Position numbers and translations under genes: made by a program. Below the pieces are notes generated by a model. The model searched no databases, was not told the origin of the DNA, and worked only from the letters and a program-made list of their open reading frames with translations. A stretch of DNA of 64,000 bases from Actinacidiphila bryophytorum (GTDB lineage: Bacteria; Actinomycetota; Actinomycetes; Streptomycetales; Streptomycetaceae). Where the stretch lies: NCBI RefSeq assembly GCF_016916835.1, contig NZ_JAFFIX010000026.1:1-64000 (forward strand), given 5' to 3'. This document shows positions 24,939-39,233 of this stretch, in pieces (the stretch's first letter is position 1; each line of letters starts with the position of its first letter).

Positions 24939-25033
24939 CGCTGGCCTCCCCGCGTCGACACTGCCCGGCGCCCCGCACAGTACTCGGCATTCCGAGTCCG
25001 GCTCCGTGCGGTGCATTGACAGGAACCTGCTAC

Positions 25034-25063
25034 TTGACGATCAATCAGCCGGGAAACTTGAAT
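25034..25063 (+). promoter_or_regulatory. Candidate promoter of the IS701-like gene
   Basis: TTGACG (25034-25039), an 18-nt spacer and TTGAAT (25058-25063), in an AT-richer stretch about 110 bp before ATG 25175. Confidence 0.35.
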
Positions 25064-25174
25064 TGTGAATCGGTTTGGAGTTCGCCTTCTCCGCAGTGCT
25101 GCCCGACACCCCGGTCTCTTCCCGGCTGAATTCTCCTGCAGCCGCATGAGCCGAGTACCGAGGGGTGTCTTCGA

Positions 25175-26431
25175 ATGGCAGACCGGCAGGAAATCCACGC
25201 ATCCGACCGTTTCCCGGAAATTGCGGCACTTTCCAGCGATCCACCGCCCGACCTGCTGGAATCGCTGTTCGCCTCATTGCCGCGGGCCGACCAGCGGCGC
25301 ACCGGCGCCGAGTACGTGATGGGCCTGTTGCGCACACCGGGGCGGAAATCGGCACGGAACATCGCACATCTCATGGGCGGCCGGGGCGCCGACCAGAGCC
25401 TGCACCACTTCGTCAACCAGTCGACCTGGGCCTGGCACCCGGTGCGCCGGGCACTTGCGGAATACTTGGTACCGCGGATTTCGGTGGACGCATGGGTGGT
25501 GCGCAGAACGCTCATTCAGAAGGTCGGCCAGCATTCCGTGGGCGTCCACCGCACCTTCGTGCCCGATGCGGGGCGGGTGCTCAACGCCCAGCAGGCCGTC
25601 GGCGTGTGGGCCGCCTCGGCCGAGGGCAGCGGCCCCGTCGACTGGGAGCTGCGGCTGCCGCGCGGCTGGCTCGACGACGACTTACGCCGCAGGAGGGCGT
25701 CGATCCCGGACAGCGCCTTCCCCGAGACGTACGCCGAGCAGGTCGCCCGGCAGTGCCGCACCGTCGTGCAGGGCTGGGGCCTGCCGGTCCGCCCGGTCGT
25801 CCTGGACGCCCGCGAGATGGACCTCGCCACGGTGCTCGGCCGCCTCGGCCGCGCGGACATCCCGGTGCTCGCGCGCATCGACGCCTCCGTGCCGCTGACG
25901 GTCGCGGACCCGGCGCTGACCGGGCACCCGGTGTCCGCCAGGATGACCGCGGGCGAGGCGGTGCGCGCCGCCCAGGGCACGGCGTGCCCGGCCCGGTGGC
26001 GCGGCCCGGGCGCGCCCGGCGGTGTACGGGCCGGGCAGCTGACCGGCGTCGCCGTCAAGGCCGCGGACGGCGGCGCGGGCGACCACCTGGCAGAGCCGCG
26101 CATCCTGACCCTGATGGGGCTGGCCGAGCGGGGCCGCCCCGAGGCGCAGCAGCTGTGGCTGACCGACATCCCCACCGCCCACCCGGCGTCGCTGCTGCGG
26201 CTGTGCACCCTGCTGGAGCGCGTCGAGTACGACTACGCGGCCACCGCGAAGAGCGTCGGCATCGAGGACTACGCGGGCCGCTCGTTCTGCGGGTGGCACC
26301 GGCACATGACGCTCGCGTCGGTGGCGCACGCCGTCGCGCTGCCGCCGGCCGCTCTGGCGCCCGCCGCGCACGGGGACCTGGTGCTCGGGGGCGCCCTGGA
26401 CGGCGGGCACGCCGCGGCGGGCCGCACCTGA
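25175..26431 (+). CDS. IS701-type transposase homologue with degenerate catalytic site
   Basis: 418 residues. The fold and spacing of the IS701/DDE endonuclease family are clear: LFASLPRADQRRTGAEYVMGLL, QSLHHFVNQSTW, KVGQHSVGVHRTFV, and a C-terminal VEYDYAATAKSVGIEDYAGR followed by GWHRHMTL. The first catalytic Asp, normally in a DDTGFPKKG-like motif, is replaced by VVRRTLIQKVG (Arg110-Arg111). The second acidic position (VVLDARE, Asp211) and a candidate Glu remain. No terminal inverted repeats were seen. The gene is intact and promoter-linked, so it looks domesticated rather than decaying. Related genes occur beside Streptomyces biosynthetic clusters; function unknown. Confidence 0.8.
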   Translation: MADRQEIHASDRFPEIAALSSDPPPDLLESLFASLPRADQRRTGAEYVMGLLRTPGRKSARNIAHLMGGRGADQSLHHFVNQSTWAWHPVRRALAEYLVPRISVDAWVVRRTLIQKVGQHSVGVHRTFVPDAGRVLNAQQAVGVWAASAEGSGPVDWELRLPRGWLDDDLRRRRASIPDSAFPETYAEQVARQCRTVVQGWGLPVRPVVLDAREMDLATVLGRLGRADIPVLARIDASVPLTVADPALTGHPVSARMTAGEAVRAAQGTACPARWRGPGAPGGVRAGQLTGVAVKAADGGAGDHLAEPRILTLMGLAERGRPEAQQLWLTDIPTAHPASLLRLCTLLERVEYDYAATAKSVGIEDYAGRSFCGWHRHMTLASVAHAVALPPAALAPAAHGDLVLGGALDGGHAAAGRT

Positions 26432-26518
26432 CGAAGTAAGGCGGAGCCGCGTTGACGCCCCGGTGGCAGGGACCAAGGGTGGGGGCGTTCCGACCTGCGG
26501 CTGGAGGGAGACGGGGCT

Positions 26519-27292
26519 ATGGAGGGCAGAGTCGCCTTGGTCACCGGGGCTGCCGGCGGCATCGGTGCGGCCGTGGCCGGCGAGCTGTGCCGGCTCGGCG
26601 CCGCCGTCGCCGCGGTGGACTGCGACGAGGACCGGCTGGCGCGCACGGTGGAGAAGCTCACCGCTGACGGGCTGCGCGCCGAGGCCTTCGCGGTCGACCT
26701 CGCGGGACGGACCCAGGTGGACGGCGCGGTCGCCGCGATCGAGGACCGGCTCGGGCCGCTGGACTACCTGGTGAACTGCGCGGGTGTGCTGCGGACCGGC
26801 GAGGTCAGGGACCTCACCGACCAGGACTGGGACGCCACCTTCGCGGTCAACGCCACCGGGGTGTTCGTGATGTCCCGCGCGGTGGTCTCCCGCATGGTGC
26901 CGCGGCGCAGCGGCGCGATCGTCACGGTCGCCTCGAACGCGGCCGGCACCGCACGTATGCAGATGGCCGCCTACGCGGCCTCCAAGGCGGCGGCGACGAT
27001 GTTCACCAAGTGCCTGGGCCTTGAGGTCGCCCGCTACGGCATCCGCTGCAACGTCGTCGCGCCCGGCTCGACGGACACCCCCATGCTCGTGGGCATGGGG
27101 GTGAACGGCGAGGCCGAGCGGGCGGGCATCATCGACGGCATCGCCGAGCACTACAAGGCGGGCATCCCGCTGCGCAAGCTCGGCCGCGCCTGCGACGTCG
27201 CCGACGCCGTCGTCTTCCTGCTGTCCGACCGCGCCTCGCACATCACGCTGCACAGCCTGACGGTCGACGGCGGCGCCACCCTCGGGGTGTGA
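26519..27292 (+). CDS. EntA/DhbA-like SDR, probable 2,3-dihydro-3-hydroxyanthranilate dehydrogenase
   Basis: 257 residues of a classical SDR: TGAAGGIG cofactor loop, NCAG, Ser in ASNAAG, and YAASK with catalytic Tyr and Lys. The stretch RCNVVAPGSTDTPM and the following YKAGIPLRKLG closely resemble 2,3-dihydro-2,3-dihydroxybenzoate dehydrogenases. With PhzE- and PhzD-like enzymes encoded at 36.5-39.2 kb, the likely substrate is the amino analogue, giving 3-hydroxyanthranilate. ATG follows GGAGGGAG. Its stop overlaps a possible GTG start of the next gene. Substrate assignment is inferred. Confidence 0.8.
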   Translation: MEGRVALVTGAAGGIGAAVAGELCRLGAAVAAVDCDEDRLARTVEKLTADGLRAEAFAVDLAGRTQVDGAVAAIEDRLGPLDYLVNCAGVLRTGEVRDLTDQDWDATFAVNATGVFVMSRAVVSRMVPRRSGAIVTVASNAAGTARMQMAAYAASKAAATMFTKCLGLEVARYGIRCNVVAPGSTDTPMLVGMGVNGEAERAGIIDGIAEHYKAGIPLRKLGRACDVADAVVFLLSDRASHITLHSLTVDGGATLGV

Positions 27293-27318
27293 GGGCGGTG
27301 CCCGGACAGGAGCCGGCG

Positions 27319-28158
27319 GTGGCAGGGCCGGGAGCGGGCGGCGAGCAGCCGCTGCTGCAGAGCAGGGACGGCGGGGTGCTCACCCTCACGCTGAACCGGC
27401 CGCACCGCAGGAACGCCATCGACAGCCCGCTGTGGGCCGCCTTCGGCGAGGCCCTGGTGACGGCCGCGGACGACCCGCAGGTGCGGGCGCTGGTCATCAC
27501 CGGTGCGGGCGGCGCCTTCTGCGCCGGCCTGGACCTGGCGGGCGCGGGTGACGGCGGGCACCCGCTGGACGTCTCGGGGCGGGGCCCGGGCTCGCACCCG
27601 CTGGAGGAGATGCGCAGGGCCAACGAACTGGCCCTGCGGCTGCACGACCTGCCGATCCCCGTGGTGGCGAAGGTGACGGGCGCCGCGGTCGGCGCGGGCT
27701 GGAATCTCGCGCTCGGCTGCGACCTGGTCGTCGCCTCCCCGCAGGCGCGCTTCTCGCAGATCTTCGTGCACCGCGGGGTGTCGGTCGACTTCGGCGGCTC
27801 CTGGCTGCTGCCGAAGCTGGTGGGCCTGCAGCAGGCCAAACGCCTGGTGCTGCTGGGCGAGACGCTCGACGCCGACGAGGCGCACCGGCTGGGCCTGGTG
27901 ACCTGGGTGGTGGCCGACGACGAGGTCGACGGCTTCACCGCCGACCTGGCGCGGCGGCTCGCGGCCGGGCCGCCGGTGGCGACGGCGCAGAGCAAGGCGC
28001 TGCTGAACGAGGGCGCGGACCGCAGCCTGCGCGAGGCGCTGGCCGGCGAGGCGCGCGCGCAGACCGTCAACTTCGCCACCGCCGACTCCCGCGAGGGCTT
28101 CACGGCCTTCCTCGACAAGTCCGAACCGGTCTTCACCGGCGAGTGGGCCGTGAAGTGA
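27319..28158 (+). CDS. Enoyl-CoA hydratase/isomerase family protein
   Basis: About 279 residues from GTG 27319, which has AGGAG 6 nt upstream; GTG 27289, overlapping the SDR stop, is an alternative. Crotonase fold: LTLTLNRPHRRNAID, oxyanion-hole GGAFCAGLDLAG and AAVGAGWNLALGCDLVVAS. The usual second glutamate region reads FVHRGVSVDFGGSWLLP, so at least one hydratase acid is substituted, as in crotonases with other chemistries. It probably acts on a CoA thioester made by the ligase encoded downstream. Confidence 0.83.
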   Translation: MAGPGAGGEQPLLQSRDGGVLTLTLNRPHRRNAIDSPLWAAFGEALVTAADDPQVRALVITGAGGAFCAGLDLAGAGDGGHPLDVSGRGPGSHPLEEMRRANELALRLHDLPIPVVAKVTGAAVGAGWNLALGCDLVVASPQARFSQIFVHRGVSVDFGGSWLLPKLVGLQQAKRLVLLGETLDADEAHRLGLVTWVVADDEVDGFTADLARRLAAGPPVATAQSKALLNEGADRSLREALAGEARAQTVNFATADSREGFTAFLDKSEPVFTGEWAVK

Positions 28159-28241: not shown

Positions 28242-28676
28242 ATGGCAACCACGATGACGGTCGAGGAGCGCGAGGCCTTCCTTGCCGATCTGCACGTCGG
28301 TGTGCTGAGCATCGCCGACGCCGAAGGGCGCGGCCCGCTCCAGGTGCCGATCGGCTACGACTACGCCCCCGGCGGCGACATCCGGATCTCCACCAAGGTC
28401 ACCAGCCGGAAGTTACAACTGGCCCGCGCGGTCGGCCGGGTGTCCTTCCTGGTGCAGACCGAGGTCTTCCCCTACCGCTACGTGTGCGTCGAGGGCCCGG
28501 TCGTCCTGGACGAGCCGACCGACCCGGAGGAGCACCGGGCACGGTCGGTTCGCTACCTGGGCGAGGCGATCGGCGGGGCCTACGCGGACGCCGTCAAGTC
28601 GGTGCTCCCGCAGTTCGTGACGCTCGCGATCCGGCCGGAGCGGTGGCGTACGTACGACGCGAGCAAGAGCATGTGA
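28242..28676 (+). CDS. Pyridoxamine 5'-phosphate oxidase family protein
   Basis: 144 residues of split-barrel FMN-binding fold: EREAFLADLHVGVLSIAD, GPLQVPIGYDYAPGGDIRI, then KLQLARAVGRVSFLVQT and VCVEGPVVL. It is the short actinobacterial PNPOx-like type, not true PdxH. ATG 28242 follows TGAGGAG. It lies within the plus-strand run of cluster genes; role unknown. Confidence 0.8.
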   Translation: MATTMTVEEREAFLADLHVGVLSIADAEGRGPLQVPIGYDYAPGGDIRISTKVTSRKLQLARAVGRVSFLVQTEVFPYRYVCVEGPVVLDEPTDPEEHRARSVRYLGEAIGGAYADAVKSVLPQFVTLAIRPERWRTYDASKSM

Positions 28677-28809: not shown

Positions 28810-29358
28810 ATGACCGACACCCCGATGAAGGACGGCCCCCTCTTCGAAGTGCGCGCCGAGGCCGTGATCGCGGCGCCGCCCGAGGCGGTGTACGCCACCG
28901 TGAGCGACCTGCCCCGGTGCGGCGAGTGGAGCGAGGAGTGCAACGGCGGCGAGTGGATCTCCGGTGCCCCCGGCACGGTCGGCGCCGTCTTCCGCGGTGA
29001 GAACTTCCGCAGCCCCGACGTCGTCGCCTGGGCGCCGGTGGTCCGCGGCACCTGGCACACGGAGGCCGAGGTCGTCGCCGCCGAGCCCGGCCGGCGCTTC
29101 GGCTGGGCGATGCGCGACAGCGCCGGGCGGGCGCAGGAGAGCGTGTGGTCCTACGAACTGGCCGCGGGCAACGAGGCGGACAGCACCGTCCTGGTGCACA
29201 GCTTCTGGATGGGCAGGGCCACCGAGGGGATCCGCGGCATCACCGCCGAGATGACCGAGGCGGAGCGCACGGAGTTCTTCTCGGCCTGGGCCGCCAAGCT
29301 CACCGCCGAGATGGCAGCGACCGTCCAGCGCGTCAAAGGCGTCGTCGAGAAGAGCTGA
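28810..29358 (+). CDS. SRPBCC (START-like) family protein
   Basis: 182 residues with a helix-grip fold: FEVRAEAVIAAPPEAVYATV, WSEECNGGEWI, GAVFRGEN, and a long C-terminal helix (FFSAWAAKLTAEMAATVQRV). Members include polyketide cyclases and lipid-binding proteins. Placed 13 bp before the acyl-CoA ligase gene, it may bind or cyclise an intermediate; that is inference. Confidence 0.78.
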   Translation: MTDTPMKDGPLFEVRAEAVIAAPPEAVYATVSDLPRCGEWSEECNGGEWISGAPGTVGAVFRGENFRSPDVVAWAPVVRGTWHTEAEVVAAEPGRRFGWAMRDSAGRAQESVWSYELAAGNEADSTVLVHSFWMGRATEGIRGITAEMTEAERTEFFSAWAAKLTAEMAATVQRVKGVVEKS

Positions 29359-29371
29359 GGGTGGTGACCGG

Positions 29372-30949
29372 ATGTTCCTGCAACGCATAGGCAACCGGGG
29401 GTTGCGGCTCGGGACGCTCTTCGAGCGCGCGGCGGCACGGCATCCGGCGACCCTGATGGTCCTCGACCACGACCTCGACATCGCGCCGGACGCGGGCCGC
29501 CGGCTGACCGTCGGGGAAATGGCCGACATCGTCACGGACTGCGCGACCCGGCTGCGCAAAGCCGGGATCCGGGCCGGTGAGCGGGTGGTGGTCTACAAGT
29601 CCGAGGGCTTCGACATCATGCTGCTGGCCTGCGCGGTGAACCGGATCGGCGCGGTGCCCGTCCTGCTGTCGCCCGCGCTCGACGGGGCGACGGCCACCGA
29701 GCTGGTACGCCGCGCCGAGCGGCCGCACCTGGTCACCGACCGGGCCAAGCTCGACCGGGAGCTGTCCCCCGGCGTCCTCGCGCTCACCCGCACCGTCGTC
29801 CTGACCACCGGCGAGCACCCCGGCACCGTCCCGCTCGCCGACCTCGGCGGCGACCCGCCCGCGCGACCCGTCGCCGTACTCGCCGACCGGCCGATGCTCA
29901 TCACCCACACCTCGGGCACCACCGGCACCCCGAAGCTGGCCGTGCACACCGCACGCAGCATGCAGGCCCGCTACCGCCCGCAGCGCGCCGCCGTCACCCC
30001 GCTGATCCGCGGCCGTGAGACCGTCGCCATCCATGTCTCCTTCGTCCACTCGCGGCTGGTCACCGCGCTGGCCATCGCGCTGCTGCGCGGCTTCCCCGTC
30101 CTCGTGCTGCGCGACGGCGAACCCGGGCACGTCGCCGACCTCTTCGCGCGGCTGCGCCCCGGCATCCTGGAGGCGCACCCCAACGCGTACATGGCCTGGG
30201 AGGGCCTCGCGGACGACCCGCGCGGGCCGCTGGCCAATGTGAAGCTCTTCAGCAGCACCTTCGACGCGATCCACCCGCGTACGGTGCGCCGCCTGCTGGG
30301 CGCCTCGCGGCGGACGCAGCCGCTGTTCGGGCAGATCTACGGGCAGAGCGAGGTCGGCCCCGCGCTGATGCGCGGCTTCACCCGCGGGCGCGCCCCGGAC
30401 GCCGACGGCCGCTGCGTCGGCATGCCCGTCCCCGGGATGACCGAGGCGCGGGTCGTCAGCCGCGGCGGGCGCCCGCCGTCGGCGGACAACCCCGGCTTCA
30501 TCGAGGTGCGCAGCGACGGCCGGATCGTCACCTACCTCGGCGAGCGTGAGCGCTACGCCGAGCAGCTCACCGACGGCTGGTGGCGGATGGGCGACGTCGG
30601 CTACCGCACCCGGTGGGGCTGCTTCCACCTGCTGGACCGGGAGGTCGACATGATCCCCGGCTTCGGCAGCAGCCTGGCCGCGGAAGACGTCCTGTTCACC
30701 CGCCTCGACCAGCTGGCCGAGGTCGTCATCGTGCCCGGCGCGGACGGCGCCCCGCCGATACCCGTCGTGTGCACCAAGGACGACAAGCCGCTGGACCCCG
30801 CGGCCTGGCGGGCCGCCACCGCCCGGCTGCCCGCGATGGCAGAGCCCGTTCACTGGCGCCTCGACGACCTGCCGCAGACCGCGACCCGCAAGATCAAACG
30901 GCTCGACCTCGCCAAGCTCCTGTCGGCGGGCGCCGACCCGGGCGAGTGA
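29372..30949 (+). CDS. AMP-binding acid-CoA ligase
   Basis: 525 residues of the ANL superfamily. Motifs in order: ITHTSGTTGTPKLAVHT (P-loop, about 183), GQIYGQSEVGPAL, WWRMGDVGYR with the ribose-binding Asp, LLDREVDMI, and the late catalytic Lys in TRKIKRLDLAKLL. It would activate a carboxylate as acyl-AMP and transfer it to CoA or a carrier. The neighbouring 3-hydroxyanthranilate genes make an aromatic amino acid a plausible substrate, but a fatty or other aryl acid cannot be excluded. Nine bp separate it from the FAD monooxygenase gene. Confidence 0.85.
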   Translation: MFLQRIGNRGLRLGTLFERAAARHPATLMVLDHDLDIAPDAGRRLTVGEMADIVTDCATRLRKAGIRAGERVVVYKSEGFDIMLLACAVNRIGAVPVLLSPALDGATATELVRRAERPHLVTDRAKLDRELSPGVLALTRTVVLTTGEHPGTVPLADLGGDPPARPVAVLADRPMLITHTSGTTGTPKLAVHTARSMQARYRPQRAAVTPLIRGRETVAIHVSFVHSRLVTALAIALLRGFPVLVLRDGEPGHVADLFARLRPGILEAHPNAYMAWEGLADDPRGPLANVKLFSSTFDAIHPRTVRRLLGASRRTQPLFGQIYGQSEVGPALMRGFTRGRAPDADGRCVGMPVPGMTEARVVSRGGRPPSADNPGFIEVRSDGRIVTYLGERERYAEQLTDGWWRMGDVGYRTRWGCFHLLDREVDMIPGFGSSLAAEDVLFTRLDQLAEVVIVPGADGAPPIPVVCTKDDKPLDPAAWRAATARLPAMAEPVHWRLDDLPQTATRKIKRLDLAKLLSAGADPGE

Positions 30950-30957
30950 GGCCCGGC

Positions 30958-32199
30958 ATGGCCAAGGTCGTCATCGTCGGCGGCGGCATCGGCGGCCTGG
31001 CCGCGGCCCTCGCGGTGGCCGCCCGCGGCCACCGGGCGGTGGTGCTGGAGCGCGGCGGGGAGTTCGCCGAGCTGGGCGCGGGCATCCAGCTGGCCCCCAA
31101 CGGCATCCACGCGCTCGACCGCCTCGGACTCGGCGCGCAGGTGCGCGAACGCGGGGTGCACATCGACGAGTTGCGCTTCATGGAAGGTGTGACCGGCGAA
31201 CACGTGGCGAGCCTGCCGCTCAAGGGCGCCTACCCGCTGCGCTTCGGCAACCCCTATGTCGTGGTGCACCGCGGGGAGTTGTACGGCCTGCTGCTCGCCG
31301 CCTGCCGCGCCGACGACGCGGTGGAGCTGCGCGCCGGCAGCGCCGTCAGGTCCTACTGGCAGGACGGCGCGGCCGCGGCCGTACGGCTGACCAGCGGTGA
31401 GGAGGTCGCCGGCGACGCGGTGATCGGGGCCGACGGCGTCCACTCGGCGGTCAGGCGGCAGCTCGTCGGCGACGGCGAGCCCCGCGTGTCGGGCATCACC
31501 GTCTACCGGACGGTCGTCCCGATGGAGCGTGTCCCGGTCGAGCTGCGCTGGAACGCGGTGACCTGGTGGGCGGGACCCGGCTGCCACTTCGTGCACTACG
31601 CCATCGCCGGCGGCCGCTACCTCAACCTCGCGCCGAGCGTGGAGAACGGCGCCACCGAGGCCGTCTCCGGGGTGCCCGTCGGCGCGGACCAGGTGCTGTC
31701 CGCCTTCGCCCCGCTCGGCCGGGTCGCGCGGCGGCTGCTGGCGCTCGGCGAGGAGTGGAGGTCCTGGGTGCTGGTCGACCGCGACCCGGTCCCGGTGTGG
31801 ACCGACGGCCGGGTGGCGCTGCTCGGCGACGCGGCCCACCCGATGCTGCACTACGCGGCGCAGGGCGCCTGCCAGGCCCTGGAGGACGCGGTCCTGCTCG
31901 GCGACCTGCTCGACGGCGACGCGGACACCGTCCCCGAGCGCCTTTCCGCGTACAACGCGCAGCGCCGCGACCGCACCGCCCGCCTCACCCACCTGGCCCG
32001 CCGGAGCACCCGCCTGTGGCACCCGGCGGGCGAGGCGGCGAAGGCCCGCAACGCGCTGCTGGCGGGCCTGACGGAGTCAGAACTGCACGACCAGGTCGCA
32101 TGGATCCACGGCACCCGCCACTTCGGCACCCCCGAGGACGGTCAGCAGTCCGACACACCGGCTGCCGCCGACGGCCGCGCCGATACGCCGCCGCAGTGA
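30958..32199 (+). CDS. FAD-dependent aromatic monooxygenase (salicylate hydroxylase-like)
   Basis: 413 residues of a group A flavin monooxygenase: VVIVGGGIGGLAAALAVA (FAD), GADGVHSAVRRQL (DG motif) and LLGDAAHPMLHYAAQGACQALED (GD motif). It is closest in layout to salicylate 1- and 3-hydroxybenzoate 6-hydroxylases and PqsH-type enzymes. It probably hydroxylates the aromatic product of this cluster with NAD(P)H and O2. The stop overlaps the start of a truncated ADP-ribosylglycohydrolase (GTGA). Confidence 0.85.
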   Translation: MAKVVIVGGGIGGLAAALAVAARGHRAVVLERGGEFAELGAGIQLAPNGIHALDRLGLGAQVRERGVHIDELRFMEGVTGEHVASLPLKGAYPLRFGNPYVVVHRGELYGLLLAACRADDAVELRAGSAVRSYWQDGAAAAVRLTSGEEVAGDAVIGADGVHSAVRRQLVGDGEPRVSGITVYRTVVPMERVPVELRWNAVTWWAGPGCHFVHYAIAGGRYLNLAPSVENGATEAVSGVPVGADQVLSAFAPLGRVARRLLALGEEWRSWVLVDRDPVPVWTDGRVALLGDAAHPMLHYAAQGACQALEDAVLLGDLLDGDADTVPERLSAYNAQRRDRTARLTHLARRSTRLWHPAGEAAKARNALLAGLTESELHDQVAWIHGTRHFGTPEDGQQSDTPAAADGRADTPPQ

Positions 32200-32624: not shown

Positions 32625-33608
32625 GTGATCGGTGCCTACGTGGACGAGTGCGGGCCGGCGGAGGTCATCAGGGTCGGGGAGGTGGCGGAGCCGCGGGTCG
32701 GGGGGACTGACGTGTTGGTCGACGTCGAGGTCAGTGCCGTCAACGCCGTTGACACCATGGTGCGTTCCGGGGCCTTCCGTACGGCGATGGAGCTCCCCTT
32801 CGTCATAGGGCGGGACCTGGTCGGCACCGTTGCCGCCGCCGGTCCGGGGGTGCCGGGGTTCCGGGTGGGCGACCGGGTGTGGTGCAACAGCATGGGGCAC
32901 GGGGGGCGGCAGGGTGCCGCCGCGCAGCGGGTCGCGGTGCCGGGGGACCGGCTCTACCGGCTGCCCGCGGGGGTGGACCCCGTCGAGGCGGTCGCGGTGG
33001 TGCACCCGGCTGCGACCGCGTACTTGGCGCTGTTCACCCACGGGCGGCTGCGCGCCGGGGAGACGGTGGTGGTCGCGGGGGGCGGGGGCAATGTCGGGGG
33101 CGCCCTGATCACGCTGGCCGTGCACGCGGGTGCCCGGGTCGTCGCGACGGCGGGCGGGCGGGACGCGGAGCGCTGCCGGGCGCTGGGCGCCGTGGAGGTC
33201 GTCGACCACCACGGCCCTGAGCTGGCAGGGGAGTTGGCGGCGGCCTGCCCGCAGGGCGCGGGGCTGTACGTCGACACCTCGGGCCGGGTGGACCTGGATC
33301 TGGCCGTCGGGCTGCTGGCCTGGCGCGGCCGGGTGGTGCTGCTGGCCGGGATGGGTGCGCGGCCGGAACTGCCCGCGGGGCCGCTCTACGTCATGGACCG
33401 CTCGGTGATCGGCTTCGCCATCTCGCACGCCACGACGGCCGAACTCGCCGAGGCCGCCGCCACGGTGAACCGCCTGCTGGCCGGCGGCGCCCTGCGCCCG
33501 TCGGCCACGCACACCCTGCCGCTGAGCGCGGCGGCCGAGGCCCACCGCCGCCTGGAGTCCGGCGGGGTCCGCGGCAAGATCGTCCTCCGCGTCGGCCCGG
33601 AGAGCTGA
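32625..33608 (+). CDS. Quinone oxidoreductase-like medium-chain dehydrogenase
   Basis: About 327 residues from GTG 32625, preceded by GGGGGAG. A GroES-like N-terminal domain (EVSAVNAVDTMVRSGAF, FVIGRDLVGTVAAAG) is followed by a Rossmann domain (VVVAGGGGNVGGALITLAV). The catalytic Cys/His zinc ligands of alcohol dehydrogenases are absent, as in QOR/zeta-crystallin proteins. It probably uses NADPH to reduce a quinone or enone. It may belong to the adjacent cluster. Confidence 0.83.
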   Translation: MIGAYVDECGPAEVIRVGEVAEPRVGGTDVLVDVEVSAVNAVDTMVRSGAFRTAMELPFVIGRDLVGTVAAAGPGVPGFRVGDRVWCNSMGHGGRQGAAAQRVAVPGDRLYRLPAGVDPVEAVAVVHPAATAYLALFTHGRLRAGETVVVAGGGGNVGGALITLAVHAGARVVATAGGRDAERCRALGAVEVVDHHGPELAGELAAACPQGAGLYVDTSGRVDLDLAVGLLAWRGRVVLLAGMGARPELPAGPLYVMDRSVIGFAISHATTAELAEAAATVNRLLAGGALRPSATHTLPLSAAAEAHRRLESGGVRGKIVLRVGPES

Positions 33609-33615
33609 CATATCG

Positions 33616-34374
33616 TCAGATCGGTGCCATCCGCAGCCCCGCGTCCAGCCGCACGGACTCGCCGTTCAGCATCGAGTTGCCGATGACGTGCTCGGCCAGC
33701 GCCGCGAACTCGTCGGCGGCGCCGAGGCGTTTGGGGTGCGGCAGCTGGCCGCGCAGCTGCTCCACCGCCCGCTCGGGGACCGCCTGCATCAGCCGGGTGT
33801 CGAACAGGCCGGGCGCGATGTCGACCACCCGGATGGCGTGCGGGGCCAGTTCGCGGGCCAGCGGCAGCGCCATGCCCGCGATCGCGGCCTTGGAGGCCGC
33901 GTACGCTGACTGCCCGCTCTGGCCGTCCCAGGCGGCGATGGAGGACGTGGTGATCACCACGCCCCGGTCCTCCTCGACCAGCGGCTGCGCCGCGATGCGG
34001 ACGACCGCCTGCCGGACCACGTTGAAGGTGCCGATGAGGTTGGTCCTGACGACCGCCTCGAACTCGTCCAGGCGCATCACCCGCCGGCCCAGGATCTGCT
34101 TGCTGTAGGTGGTGCCTGCGCAGCACACGAGGCTGCGCAGCTCCCCTAGTTCCTCGGCCGCGTCCAGGACCCGGCCGACCGCGTCGTCGTCGGTGACGTC
34201 GCCGGCCACGAAGACCGCCTGCGGGCCGAGTCGGGCGGCGGCGGCCCTGCCGGTCTCCGGCGAGCGGCCCATCACCACCACGCGCGCCCCTGCCGCCACC
34301 AGCCGCCGCGCGGTCGCCAGGCCCAGGCCCGCTGTTCCGCCGGTGACCAGCGCCACCGTGTCCTTGAGCTGCAC
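33616..34374 (-). CDS. SDR family oxidoreductase
   Basis: 252 residues: TGGTAGLGLATARRL cofactor loop, CCAGTTYS, Ser pair in TTSSIAAWDG, YAASK catalytic Tyr-Lys and DIAPGLFDT. The sequence resembles type-2 3-hydroxyacyl-CoA dehydrogenases (HSD17B10-like). It is co-oriented with, and 36 bp after, the FabH-like gene, so it could reduce the 3-ketoacyl product of that enzyme. Confidence 0.83.
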   Translation of the reverse strand: MQLKDTVALVTGGTAGLGLATARRLVAAGARVVVMGRSPETGRAAAARLGPQAVFVAGDVTDDDAVGRVLDAAEELGELRSLVCCAGTTYSKQILGRRVMRLDEFEAVVRTNLIGTFNVVRQAVVRIAAQPLVEEDRGVVITTSSIAAWDGQSGQSAYAASKAAIAGMALPLARELAPHAIRVVDIAPGLFDTRLMQAVPERAVEQLRGQLPHPKRLGAADEFAALAEHVIGNSMLNGESVRLDAGLRMAPI

Positions 34375-34410: not shown

Positions 34411-35367
34411 TCAGGCCGCGGTGTCCGGGTCGTACCAGCGCACGATCGCGGCGCCCGCGGTCATGCCGGCCCCGACGGCCAGCAGCGCGAAGAGGTCGCC
34501 GTCGCGGAAGGGCCGGTCCGCGTGGGCCATGGAGAAGGCGACCGCCACCGAGGCGCCTGCGGTGTTGCCGGTCAGCCGCCCGTAGTCGGGGGCGACTTCG
34601 GGCGGGATGCCGACGAAGTCGCCGAGCATGCGCACCAGTTTGGGGTTGGCCTGGTGGATGAGGACCCGGTTCAGCTCGTCCAGCCGGACCCCGGCCTTGG
34701 CGAGCGCGGCTTCGAGGATCTTCGGGCCGCGTTCCATGACCACCCTCTTGACCCCGCGCCCGTCCATCTGGAAGTAGCCGTCGTGCCGCGGCATCGTCGC
34801 GATCTCCGACAGCGAGCCGTCGGCCCACAGTTCGAGCGCGAGGATGCCGTATCCGGCGGGTACGGGGCCGAGTTGGACCGCTCCCGCGCCGTCGCCGAAC
34901 AGCGGGGCGATGCGGTGGTCGGTGGGGTCGACGCAGCGGGTCAGGACGTCGGCGGCGACCACGAGCGGGTGCCGGGCGAGGCCCGCGGCGGTCATGGCGG
35001 TGGCGACCGAGAGCGCGTAGAGGAAGCCGGAGCAGCCGGCGCTCACGTCGAAGGCCGGTATGCCGGGCAGCCCGAGCTTCTTCTGCACGTAGCAGGCGGT
35101 GGACGGGGCGAGTTTGTCGGGGGTGCTGGTGCCGAGGACGATCAGGTCGGCGCCGACGGGTGCGCCGGCCAGCGCCAGGGTCGCGGCCTGGGTGGCGAGG
35201 TCGGAGGTCAGGGACTCGGGTGCCGCGTAGTGCCGGCTCTCGATCCCGGTGCGCTCGCGTATCCACTCGATGTCGACGCTCGCGGTCTCGGCCACCGCTT
35301 CGTTGGAAACGGGTGCACCGGGAAGGTAGTGCCCGACTCCGACGATGCCCAACGAGGTTGTGTCCAT
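34411..35367 (-). CDS. FabH-like 3-oxoacyl-ACP synthase III
   Basis: 318 residues from ATG 35367, which has GGAG 6 nt upstream (ATG 35370 is adjacent). Thiolase fold with the KAS III triad: Cys112 in DVSAGCSGFLY, His in LIHQANPKLV, and Asn in LTGNTAGASVA. It condenses an acyl-CoA with malonyl-ACP or malonyl-CoA. In a cluster with an aryl-CoA ligase it could play a PqsD-like role, extending anthraniloyl-type starters. That is inferred; PqsD homologues cannot be separated from FabH by eye. Confidence 0.85.
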   Translation of the reverse strand: MDTTSLGIVGVGHYLPGAPVSNEAVAETASVDIEWIRERTGIESRHYAAPESLTSDLATQAATLALAGAPVGADLIVLGTSTPDKLAPSTACYVQKKLGLPGIPAFDVSAGCSGFLYALSVATAMTAAGLARHPLVVAADVLTRCVDPTDHRIAPLFGDGAGAVQLGPVPAGYGILALELWADGSLSEIATMPRHDGYFQMDGRGVKRVVMERGPKILEAALAKAGVRLDELNRVLIHQANPKLVRMLGDFVGIPPEVAPDYGRLTGNTAGASVAVAFSMAHADRPFRDGDLFALLAVGAGMTAGAAIVRWYDPDTAA

Positions 35368-35499
35368 CATCCGCTCCGTTGTCGTCCAGACGGCCATGGC
35401 CTTTCACGTCGGCGGACGCCGGCGTCGTACGGCAGAGGACCGCCGTTCGAGAAGCACAGTGGCTGCGCGGGAGGGGCGTCCAGCCCGCCCGCGCGGGTT

Positions 35500-35635: not shown

Positions 35636-36457
35636 GTGCTGGACGCCGAGTTGAGGGCCGCGTACCTGGAGCGGATCGGGGCCGCACGGCCCGAACGCGC
35701 CGACGCCGCGGCCCTGCGGCTGCTGCACGAACGGCATGTGCTGTCGGTGCCGTTCGACACCCTGGACTTCCACATCCCCCGGGAGATCTTCTACAAGGAC
35801 CTGCGGGTCGTGGAGAAGATCGTGCACGAGCGGCGCGGCGGGGTGTGCGGGGAGACCAACACCGCATTCCACTTCCTGCTGCGGTCCCTGGGATTCGCCA
35901 GCACGATGCACCACGGCAGGGTCTGGTTCGGCGACCGGCTCTACGCGCCCTACAACCACTTCCTGCTGTCGGTGGACATCGACGGGCAGAAGTGGGTGGT
36001 GGACGTGGGATTCGGCAAGATCTCCCGCTATCCGCTGCTGCGCGACACCGAGGAGCCGCAGCGCAATGCGCACGGCGTCTTCCAGGTGCGCAAGGTCGAC
36101 GCCAGGACGTACGACGTGTTCCGCAACGGCAAGCCGCAGTACCGCTTCTACGACGACGAGGTCGACCTGGACGTCGACCTCGACCAGGTCGTGTGGTGGA
36201 TGCGGACGAGCCCGCAGTCGCCGACCCTGCAGAACATGATCTGCTCGCGGCCGACCGAGGACGGCTGGGTGACCCTCAAGGACGACGTGCTCACCGTCGT
36301 CAGCGGCGCCGGGCGGGAGACCGGGCAACTGGCCGGCGACGCCGAGGTGCTCGCGGCGTACGAGAAGTGGTTCGGGTTCACGCTGGAGCGGCGCCCGACT
36401 CCCGGCCCGCACGCGCGCACCGACCCCTCGCGCGTGATGGCGGTCGACCAGGACTGA
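35636..36457 (+). CDS. Arylamine N-acetyltransferase family protein
   Basis: 273 residues from GTG 35636, preceded by GGGAGGGG; the length fits the NAT family. The catalytic triad is intact: Cys71 in [10 protein letters not shown], His108 in NHFLL, Asp123 in WVVDVGFG. NATs acetylate arylamines from acetyl-CoA, and a subset act as amide synthases that release polyketides (RifF type). Directly upstream of PhzD- and PhzE-like genes, its natural acceptor may be the 3-hydroxyanthranilate amine. A resistance or self-protection role is also possible. Confidence 0.85.
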
Positions 36458-36558: not shown

Positions 36559-37242
36559 ATGCCGGCCATACCCCCGATCACGGCCTACCCCGTGCCCACC
36601 CGGGACGACCTGCCGGAGAACACCGCCCGCTGGGAGCTCGATCCGGACCGCGCCGCCCTGCTCATCCACGACATGCAGAACTTCTTCCTGCGGCCCTTCC
36701 CCGAGGACGGCTCGCCCCGGCGCGAACTGCTCGCCAACACCGCCCGGTTACGTGACGCGTGCGCGGGCAGCGGCATGCCCGTCGCCTACACCGAGCAGCC
36801 CGGCGACATGACCGAGGCGGAACGCGGCCTGCTGCGGGACTTCTGGGGACCCGGGATGCGCCGTGCCGAGCACGACCGCGCCGTCACCGGCGCCCTCGCG
36901 CCCAGGGACGGCGACTGGCGGCTGACCAAGTGGCGCTACAGCGCCTTCCAGCGCACCGACCTGCTCGACAGCCTGCGCGCCGCCGGCCGCGACCAGTTGG
37001 TCGTCTGCGGGGTGTACGCCCATGTGGGCATCCTGATGACGTGCGTGGAGGCGTTCAGCCACGACATCCAGCCCTTCCTGGTCGCCGACGCGGTCGCCGA
37101 CTTCACCGCCGACTACCACCGGCTGGCCGTCACCTACGCGGCCGAGCGCTGCGCCGTCGTGCAGACCACCGACGAGACGCTCGCCCGGCTCGCGCGGACC
37201 GGCAGGGCCGCGGGGCTGCCGGCCGCCGAGACCCTGGCCTGA
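36559..37242 (+). CDS. PhzD-like isochorismatase (ADIC hydrolase)
   Basis: 227 residues from ATG 36559, after AGGAGGAGG. Asp38 in [10 protein letters not shown] and Lys124 in TKWRYSAFQ match PhzD positions. [16 protein letters not shown] followed by [16 protein letters not shown] is characteristic of PhzD. The Cys of ordinary isochorismatases (VYAHIGC) is Ile here, as expected for the PhzD subgroup. It would hydrolyse 2-amino-2-deoxyisochorismate to trans-2,3-dihydro-3-hydroxyanthranilate plus pyruvate. The stop shares one base with the next start (TGATG), indicating tight coupling. Confidence 0.87.
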
Positions 37243-39233
37243 TGCCGCGCCCGCCCGAGCCCGAACCACCGGTCCTGGCAGGCCTCGTGGCGCAGCGGCA
37301 CCCGCCGCCCTTCGCCCTGCTGCACCGCCCGCACAGCGGCGCCGACGGACTCGACCTGCTGCTCGGCCAGGTCAGCACGCCCACGGCGCTGGCCGACATC
37401 CCGCTGCCGCCTGCCGGGGGCGCCGGCGGCCCGCGGCAGGACGTGCTCGCGCTCGTCCCCTACCGGCAGATCGCGGAGCGCGGCTTCGCCCACACCGACG
37501 ACGGGGCGCCGCTGCTGGCGATGTCCGTGGACCACCGGGAGCGGGTGCCGCTGCGGACCGCGCTGCGCCTGCTGCCCGACGAGCCGCCGGTCGTGACCGG
37601 CGGCAGGTTCGACGTCAGCGACGAGGACTACGCGGAGACGGTCAAGAAGGTGGTCACCGACGAGATCGGCTGGGGCGAGGGCGCCAACTTCGTCATCCGG
37701 CGCTCGTACGTGGCGGAGCTGGCCGGCGACCGTGCGCGCGCCGCCCTGTCCATCTTCCGCCGGCTGCTGCGCGGCGAGTCCGGAGCCTACTGGACGTACG
37801 TGGTGCACACCGCCGAGCGCACCGTCGTCGGCGCCAGCCCGGAGCGCCATGTCAGCCTCGCTCGGGGCACCGCCGTGATGAACCCGATCAGCGGCACCCT
37901 GCGCCACCCGCCGTCGGGCGCCACCCTCGCGGAGGTCGAGCGCTTCCTGGCCGACCGCAAGGAGACCGACGAGCTGAACATGGTCCTGGACGAGGAACTC
38001 AAGATGATGGCCCGGTTCTGCACCGGCGGCGGCCGCGTCGTGGGTCCGTACCTGAAGGAGATGGCCCGGCTCGCGCACACCGAGTACCTCATCGAGGGGC
38101 GTACGGAGCAGGACCCGCGCACCATCCTGCGGGAGACCATGTTCGCCCCCACGGTGACCGGCAGCCCGCTGGAGAACGCCTGCCGGGTGATCACCCGTTA
38201 CGAGCAGGGCGGGCGCGGCTACTACAGCGGGATCGCGGCGCTCATCGGGCGGGACGAACAGGGCGGGCGCACCCTGGACTCCGCCATCATGATCCGCACC
38301 GCGGACATCGACCCGCGCGGCAGGCTGCGGATCGGTGTGGGCGCCACCCTGGTGCGGCACTCCCACCCGGTCTCCGAGGTCGCCGAGACCGCGGCGAAGG
38401 CAGCCGGGCTGCTGCACGCGCTCGGGGTCGCGCACACCGCCGACGGCGACAGCGCGCCCGCGCCCGTACAGCACGGGACGCCGCGGCCCGGGACGCAACC
38501 GCCCGCGCCCGCCGCCCGTTTCGGCAGCCACCCCCGGGTGCGCTCGGCCCTGGCCCGGCGCAACGGCGGGCTCGCCGGCTTCTGGCTGGCCCCGCAGCAG
38601 GAGCGGGCGCGGCCCGTCCCGCAGCTCGACGGGCGCAGGGCGCTGATCGTGGACGCCGAGGACACCTTCACCGCGATGATCGCCGAGCAGTTGCGCGCGA
38701 TCGGGCTCGGCATCGAGGTGCGTCGCTTCGACGAGCCCCTCCGGGAGCAGGACTGGGACCTGGTGGTCGCGGGCCCCGGACCCGGCGACCCGCGGGAGGA
38801 CGGCGACCCGAAGATCGCGCGGCTGCGCACTCTGCTCGGCACCTTGCTGTCGGACTCGCGGCCCTTCCTCGCCGTGTGCCTGAGCCACCAGGTGCTGTGC
38901 ACGGAACTCGGACTGCCACTGCGCCGCCGTACGGTGCCCAACCAGGGCACGCAGAAGGCGATCGACCTCTTCGGCCGCGCCGAGCGGGTCGGCTTCTACA
39001 ACACCTTCGCCGCCACCAGCGCGTCACCGCAGATCCGGCCGCCCCGGCTCGGCGGCGCCCCCGTGCGGGTGTCGGCCGACGCGGCGACGTCGGAGGTCCA
39101 CGCGCTGCGCGGCCCCGGGTTCGCGTCCTTCCAGTTCCACGCCGAGTCGGTGCTCACCGTCGACGGCCTGCGGCTCCTCACCGCGGCGACCACGCACGCC
39201 CTGGGCGCATCCGGGCAGCAACCCGACCGGTAG
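37242..39233 (+). CDS. PhzE-like 2-amino-2-deoxyisochorismate synthase
   Basis: 663 residues, fused TrpE-like and glutaminase domains. The chorismate-binding part (about 120-410) includes GASPERHVSLARGTAVMNPI, FLADRKETDELNMVLDEEL and the TVTGSPLENACRVI/GYYSGIAALIG region. A Pro/Ala-rich linker (about 410-440) precedes a class I glutamine amidotransferase with nucleophile Cys in FLAVCLSHQVL and His-Glu in FQFHAESVL. Fused synthases with the CLSHQ motif are PhzE type and make ADIC rather than anthranilate. It starts within the TGATG overlap with the PhzD-like gene. Confidence 0.87.
   Translation: MPRPPEPEPPVLAGLVAQRHPPPFALLHRPHSGADGLDLLLGQVSTPTALADIPLPPAGGAGGPRQDVLALVPYRQIAERGFAHTDDGAPLLAMSVDHRERVPLRTALRLLPDEPPVVTGGRFDVSDEDYAETVKKVVTDEIGWGEGANFVIRRSYVAELAGDRARAALSIFRRLLRGESGAYWTYVVHTAERTVVGASPERHVSLARGTAVMNPISGTLRHPPSGATLAEVERFLADRKETDELNMVLDEELKMMARFCTGGGRVVGPYLKEMARLAHTEYLIEGRTEQDPRTILRETMFAPTVTGSPLENACRVITRYEQGGRGYYSGIAALIGRDEQGGRTLDSAIMIRTADIDPRGRLRIGVGATLVRHSHPVSEVAETAAKAAGLLHALGVAHTADGDSAPAPVQHGTPRPGTQPPAPAARFGSHPRVRSALARRNGGLAGFWLAPQQERARPVPQLDGRRALIVDAEDTFTAMIAEQLRAIGLGIEVRRFDEPLREQDWDLVVAGPGPGDPREDGDPKIARLRTLLGTLLSDSRPFLAVCLSHQVLCTELGLPLRRRTVPNQGTQKAIDLFGRAERVGFYNTFAATSASPQIRPPRLGGAPVRVSADAATSEVHALRGPGFASFQFHAESVLTVDGLRLLTAATTHALGASGQQPDR

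Follow-up and report, generated by a model that had tools for sequence, protein, structure and literature searches.

TldR proteins are nuclease-dead forms of TnpB that were exapted as transcription factors. They resemble the subject of this article in being transposon proteins that became regulators once the nuclease was dead, but they are RNA-guided RuvC proteins, not DDE transposases. Our own subject lies in 64,000 nucleotides of Actinacidiphila bryophytorum DNA (NCBI RefSeq assembly GCF_016916835.1, contig NZ_JAFFIX010000026.1, positions 1 to 64,000; "the window" throughout means this whole stretch). At 25175..26431 on the + strand, the open reading frame, profile searches and alignment identify a gene for a catalytically dead, 418-amino acid protein with the IS701/DDE_5 fold. 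A first-pass annotation had called this gene full length, as the reading frame confirms, and had suggested that it was selected for a DNA-binding, non-transposing role. The gene is almost certainly an exapted IS701 transposase and, we think, probably a DNA-binding, cluster-situated regulator, the DNA binding, the targets and the sign of regulation being what we infer from the comparisons below.

By family, the window protein belongs with the IS701 transposases. It matches Pfam DDE_5 (E 1.1e-37) and the NCBIfam IS701 model NF033540 (278 bits against a curated cut-off of 150, E 1.3e-82), and the homology to NF033540, over residues 27-387, points to the same family fold. It differs from IS701 in that its clade mostly lacks the first catalytic Asp and the Glu, and in that the window gene is single copy, has no terminal repeats and keeps conserved neighbors. 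A second comparison is with Tn5 transposase and its inhibitor form (PDB 1mm8 and 1b7e). Searching the PDB by sequence with the window protein gave nothing up to E 10. An AlphaFold2 model (pLDDT 89, pTM 0.88) matched Tn5 transposase with a Foldseek E of 1.9e-12 and a VIA Z of 24.1 (root-mean-square deviation 4.3, 334 residues aligned), model residues 19-397 lying on Tn5 residues 5-372. The predicted protein therefore shares the Tn5/IS4-like DDE fold, N-terminal DNA-binding region included since the match starts at Tn5 residue 5, and the model bears out the earlier remark that the fold around the altered site is preserved. The differences from Tn5 are an identity of only ~14%, a changed first catalytic residue and an alignment that stops at Tn5 residue 372, leaving the Tn5 C-terminal region unmatched. 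Integrases also matched the model, at Z of about 8-10; we set these aside as reflecting only the common RNase H fold. The cluster-situated regulators of Streptomyces, of the SARP, PucR and ScbR types, are alike in their position in biosynthetic clusters and are not known to share the fold of the window protein. A further comparison is with pzm10, entered in the gene table of the penzonemycin paper (PMC9323291) as a "transposase" of 432 amino acids; in that 3-hydroxyanthranilate (3-HAA) cluster it is flanked by pzm9 (DAHP synthase) and pzm11 (nitrosuccinate lyase); that table entry alone is what we compared.

The first-pass annotation had seen Arg-Arg in place of the first catalytic Asp, and alignment with intact IS701 copies upholds this for the window gene. 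By "intact" we mean an intact motif; activity is not implied. The VDD[T/V] motif of intact copies from same-genus and same-order genomes reads V-R-R-T in the window protein, R110-R111 (codons 25502..25507, +) standing where intact copies have D and then D, E or, once, P. The second catalytic Asp aligns with D211 (25805..25807, +) and the Glu with E351 (26225..26227, +), both kept here, so that the protein carries R110, D211 and E351 instead of D-D-E. Our alignment held 99 full-length sequences, 77 of which, with hidden Markov model (HMM) scores of at least 340, we define as the clade. All 17 distant intact IS701 copies have D-D-E and none of the 77 clade members does; three of five sequences falling between the clade and the intact group have the triad. 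The first Asp is lost in 75/77 members and the Glu in 56/77 (Glu is kept in 21 and Asp stands there in 35), while the second Asp survives in 67/77. Arg-Arg is not, on the other hand, the substitution of the clade: the first position is R in 47 members, Q in 17, H in 6, D in 2 and other residues in the rest. The two that keep the first Asp are a paralogue in the window's own genome and its orthologue, and both have lost the other two catalytic residues.

Signs of mobility are missing too. No terminal inverted repeat joins the flanks of the window gene beyond chance, 65/200 shuffles being as good (121/200 with wider flanks), in keeping with the first-pass observation that none was visible; the same annotation had held that mobile copies with terminal repeats would undo its proposal, and the window gene shows no mobile-end signal. 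The test was positive in 7/8 intact IS701 copies tried, two of them copies of one element. Among nine dead loci tested, the window's included, three were borderline: L070 (0/100 shuffles as good), L071 (2/100) and L073 (5/100). We take these repeats to be chance and not real ends, because their sequences differ from each other. Some intact IS701 types occur in several near-identical copies, which is what mobility would leave behind. Across the 96 contigs of its assembly the window gene is present once, with one distant homologue at 35% identity.

The triad-less genes form one clade. In a tree of the aligned sequences (a quick method with a midpoint root and several long branches), a branch with SH-aLRT support of 100 separates all 79 triad-less rows from the 20 triad-bearing ones, and for that reason a single loss of transposition is the simplest reading. 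Matches at E 1e-60 or better occur in 120/394 genomes of the window's family, and a phylum-wide sample at E 1e-55 gave matches in just 3/396 genomes, that of the window and two more from its family. Two members outside the family, in Nocardia (L003) and in one other family of the order (L203), are both triad-less. This clade is under purifying selection: the ratio of nonsynonymous to synonymous substitution rates (dN/dS) in 52 pairs of 70-99.5% identity was 0.04-0.52, median 0.33, by NG86, a method that is crude for GC-rich codons and for which neighboring genes make a fair yardstick. Between the window gene and its orthologue in genome G004 (83% identity) the ratio is 0.25, against 0.135-0.44 for neighboring genes of the same two genomes. 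The relaxed selection that the first-pass annotation had named as grounds for rejection was not seen in any of the 52 pairs, and we dropped the idea of relaxed decay of these genes.

These results bear most directly on the suggestion that the gene is a decayed IS701 copy or a passive passenger in its cluster. The protein does pass the cut-off of the IS701 family, and genes like it carry transposase annotations, including in Table 3 of PMC9323291. Yet dN/dS and synteny already contradict a decayed copy: the genes are under purifying selection, fall in one clade, lack terminal repeats at the window gene and keep conserved neighbors in many species, with such linkage at 0/20 IS701 loci. We regard decay as very improbable.

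The company that the exapted protein keeps bears on what it does. We took 61 loci, the window plus the 60 closest among the matches listed, so the counts exaggerate the linkage in the family at large; the stretches were 30 kb for the window and up to 20 kb elsewhere, some shortened by contig ends. In 42/61 loci there is a 3-hydroxyanthranilate-type gene for DAHP synthase, PhzD or PhzE. The controls, like this count made without extra flanks, gave 0/20 for stretches displaced by 100 kb from 20 of the 61 loci and 0/20 for IS701 loci (four with stretches of 10-12 kb; L165 gave no full-length frame). Adding extra flanks to 16 of the 19 core-negative loci, on a single side at L078 and L113, brought the figure to 51/61, a count with no matched control. 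With loci collapsed at 70% identity, a core gene is found in at least one member of 31/41 groups. A separate coordinate count placed a PhzD homologue within 30 kb of 69/150 matches listed, ~1 being expected at random placement. Starting instead from PhzD homologues, and ordering them by closeness to the window's PhzD, a dead IS701 gene lies nearby in 29/40, 23/40, 13/40 and 4/30 among the matches listed. Cut-offs of the neighbor-family HMMs were set by eye, the score distributions being clearly split for most families, and our home-made gene caller missed the IS gene in 2/61 loci and started some genes late. The synteny is thus conserved across species (42/61 against 0/20 and 0/20), and what had been described as adjacency to a biosynthetic cluster is better put as a conserved tie, both to gene sets of the 3-hydroxyanthranilate type and to genes for regulators.

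If an RNase H-fold protein had been taken on for 3-hydroxyanthranilate chemistry, whether as enzyme, chaperone or scaffold, and regulated nothing, it too would be expected to show the tight linkage to PhzC/D/E and DhbA-like genes. The frequent retention of the second Asp fits such a role, as does the short distance, 87 bp, to the window's next gene. Against it, the dead gene looks like its own unit in most loci, by its long upstream gaps and convergent neighbors, and the main texts of the limazepine and caboxamycin papers, which describe clusters that use 3-HAA and which we judged by text alone, contain no word beginning "transpos". Triad-less members also adjoin other kinds of cluster. Two Streptomyces plasmids carry triad-less members, both R, D, D: on NZ_CP108239 the gene, annotated "transposase", is followed first by a SARP gene and then by genes for ScbR and ScbA; on NZ_CP108444 it is missing from the gene table, is convergent with a helix-turn-helix protein and lies beside type I polyketide synthase genes. 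A further member (L111:11041-15966) sits beside an isoprenoid set of LytB/ispH-, polyprenyl synthase-, dxs- and GcpE/ispG-like genes. The silence of those two papers and the variety of clusters make an enzymatic or scaffolding role less likely, and we rate it unlikely overall.

Genes for a GAF-PucR protein (identified by Pfam on one member; an example is L100:10688-12655, -) occur in 36/61 loci, and in 35 they are convergent with and adjoin the dead IS701 gene. SARP genes occur in 10 loci, ScbR-like in 9 and ScbA-like in 8, and any of GAF-PucR, SARP or ScbR in 48/61; the 20 shifted stretches held none and the 20 IS701 loci one SARP. Upstream gaps, remeasured from the alignment start because the gene caller begins some genes late, are at least 87 bp in 61/61 (median 315). 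The next gene is convergent in 40/59, and of the 19 that are co-directional 15 lie >100 bp away, so that the dead IS701 gene looks like a separate unit in most loci. For the window gene itself, the "promoter-like region" of the first-pass annotation comes down to a 236-bp intergenic gap on the 5' side; a scan of 24939-26530 found no sigma-70-type promoter.

Within that gap, a repeat search found two inverted exact copies of the 11-bp TCAGCCGGGAA, 74 bp apart, at 25045..25055 (+, left arm) and 25119..25129 (-, right arm). They are the sole exact copies in 64 kb, and a perfect repeat as long arose in 1/100 shuffles; as a candidate operator the pair is suggestive only. A different palindrome, GTGGTCCGGCCAC, lies upstream of many clade genes and is paired, 63-65 bp apart, in 8 loci. 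We dropped it as a site for the transposase-like protein and reassigned it to GAF-PucR, because it tracks the GAF-PucR gene: with up to 2 mismatches it is found in 33/38 cases with that gene and in 1/39 without. It is probably a GAF-PucR binding site, in which case the transposase-derived gene would stand under that regulator. The window lacks a GAF-PucR gene.

If the protein binds DNA, its N-terminal helical domain (residues 26-102; 25250..25480, +), delimited by the model and by conservation, is the likely place. The domain is basic and lies within the Tn5-matching part. Across the 65 rows of the dead set, pairwise identity there is 0.63, as high as in the best core segments (0.63 and 0.62), and across the 20 rows of the intact set it is 0.42, where the same core segments reach 0.59 and 0.59; mean net charge is +4.4 in the dead set and +1.6 in the intact. 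DNA binding could serve other purposes: the protein could attach to IS701 ends and limit IS701 activity near clusters, as a structural, insulating or anti-transposition factor. This idea can draw on an N-terminal region common to intact IS701, and on the existence of a Tn5 transposase inhibitor form (1b7e, matched at Z 17.1). It does not predict, however, that the gene would be tied to a single biosynthetic set and to regulators, and strikes us as quite unlikely.

Our preferred account, then, is that of a cluster-situated regulator. The clade would have arisen once from an IS701-type DDE transposase taken over by its host. Loss of the catalytic triad and of the mobile ends would have ended transposition, and with both gone the clade protein should no longer transpose. 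Retaining a Tn5-like fold with its N-terminal DNA-binding region, the protein probably binds DNA upstream both of its own gene and of the 3-hydroxyanthranilate-type cluster, and in many relatives it appears to be wired together with the GAF-PucR regulator or with a SARP/gamma-butyrolactone module. Of the first-pass proposal, domestication and the end of transposition stand, on the strength of one clade under purifying selection, without repeats and with conserved neighbors; binding and regulation are the conjectural part. We are evenly divided over the broadest version, in which a single ancient exaptation founded a large family of transcription factors specific to clusters. These would have spread along with their target clusters, mainly within one actinomycete family, and in many genomes each would share a two-regulator circuit with a convergent GAF-PucR that acts on GTGGTCCGGCCAC upstream of the transposase-derived gene.

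Several observations weigh against this account. The cluster tie is strongest among the window protein's closest relatives and weaker in distant ones: among the matches listed, PhzD lies within 30 kb in 22/30, 23/30, 14/40 and 10/50 by rank from the window protein. Neither L111 nor L127 has the cluster core or GAF-PucR, SARP or ScbR genes within 20 kb. The TCAGCCGGGAA pair carries one change in the G004 orthologue, its perfect part falling to 9 with 30/100 shuffles as long, and is absent in the 60% relatives, while GTGGTCCGGCCAC follows another protein's gene. Loci without GAF-PucR yielded no convincing shared upstream motif; the candidates, AT-rich or GC-rich and scoring only slightly above three shuffled sets, were rejected. 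The window gene is one of four with a close co-directional next gene and, because that gene follows at 87 bp, its co-transcription with the cluster is possible. Finally, a second triad-less IS701-like gene in the window's own assembly, L189 (G000:C3:193898-195013), has no core or regulator genes within its 20-kb stretch. It is 98.8% identical to its orthologue in G004, L190 (G004:C56:62021-63157), with a dN/dS of 0.04, and perhaps serves a separate host function.

Were the clade genes regulators, they would act as switches of numerous aromatic-amine clusters and as a signature for finding them, and they would offer an instance of a bacterial DDE transposase that became a transcription factor and can be compared with intact relatives. 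In the open-access literature we found neither an account of a dead IS701 family nor a knock-out of any gene of this kind. The accessible text of PMC5867642 has no word with "transpos", and the transposase gene in that of PMC11019849 is unrelated. One plasmid record and an entry in a cluster table label clade genes as transposases, and with that label they are easily left out of cluster annotations.

The window gene lies in a biosynthetic cluster. Downstream come a DhbA-like dehydrogenase (26519..27292, +; TIGR04316, 334.7 bits, cut-off 300), which adjoins the gene in G004 too, and three proteins assigned by Pfam: an enoyl-CoA hydratase/isomerase family member (27298..28158, +, its start set by the gene caller), a PPOX-class protein (28242..28676, +) and an SRPBCC/polyketide cyclase-like protein (28810..29358, +). 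An AMP-binding ligase (29372..30949, +; Pfam) clusters with ANL genes of other loci and matches the 3-aminoavenalumate diazotase model weakly (90.9 bits, far under the cut-off of 975). An FAD-dependent monooxygenase (30958..32199, +) and a quinone oxidoreductase/zinc-type dehydrogenase (32625..33608, +) follow, then a second short-chain dehydrogenase (33616..34374) and a ketoacyl-ACP synthase III (34411..35397), both on the - strand, and an arylamine N-acetyltransferase (35636..36457, +). Farther on, 10-14 kb from the window gene, come a PhzD-like isochorismatase (36559..37242, +), whose homologues lie near dead IS701 genes, and a PhzE-like ADIC (2-amino-2-deoxyisochorismate)/anthranilate synthase with chorismate-binding and GATase parts (37242..39233, +). 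According to PMC5958127 and PMC9323291, relatives of this PhzD/PhzE-like set are said to make 3-hydroxyanthranilate in described clusters. In the other 12 genes called between 25175 and 39233, Pfam found no further DNA-binding regulator.

The orthologous cluster in G004 (L069, G004:C67:36701-56700) has no PhzE-like or ketosynthase III gene among those called, and its N-acetyltransferase call is short (98 amino acids), so the cluster seems reduced there. In seven loci (L075, L083, L090, L098, L109, L112 and L119) two triad-less IS701-like genes of different subclades occur together, adjacent in 5/7, and these may possibly be hetero-partners. In L072:15692-18479, near the dead IS701 gene, lie an adenylosuccinate-lyase C-terminal piece and a 679-amino acid FAD-NAD(P)-binding protein, a pair suggestive of CreD/CreE of the nitrous-acid pathway and of diazo chemistry.
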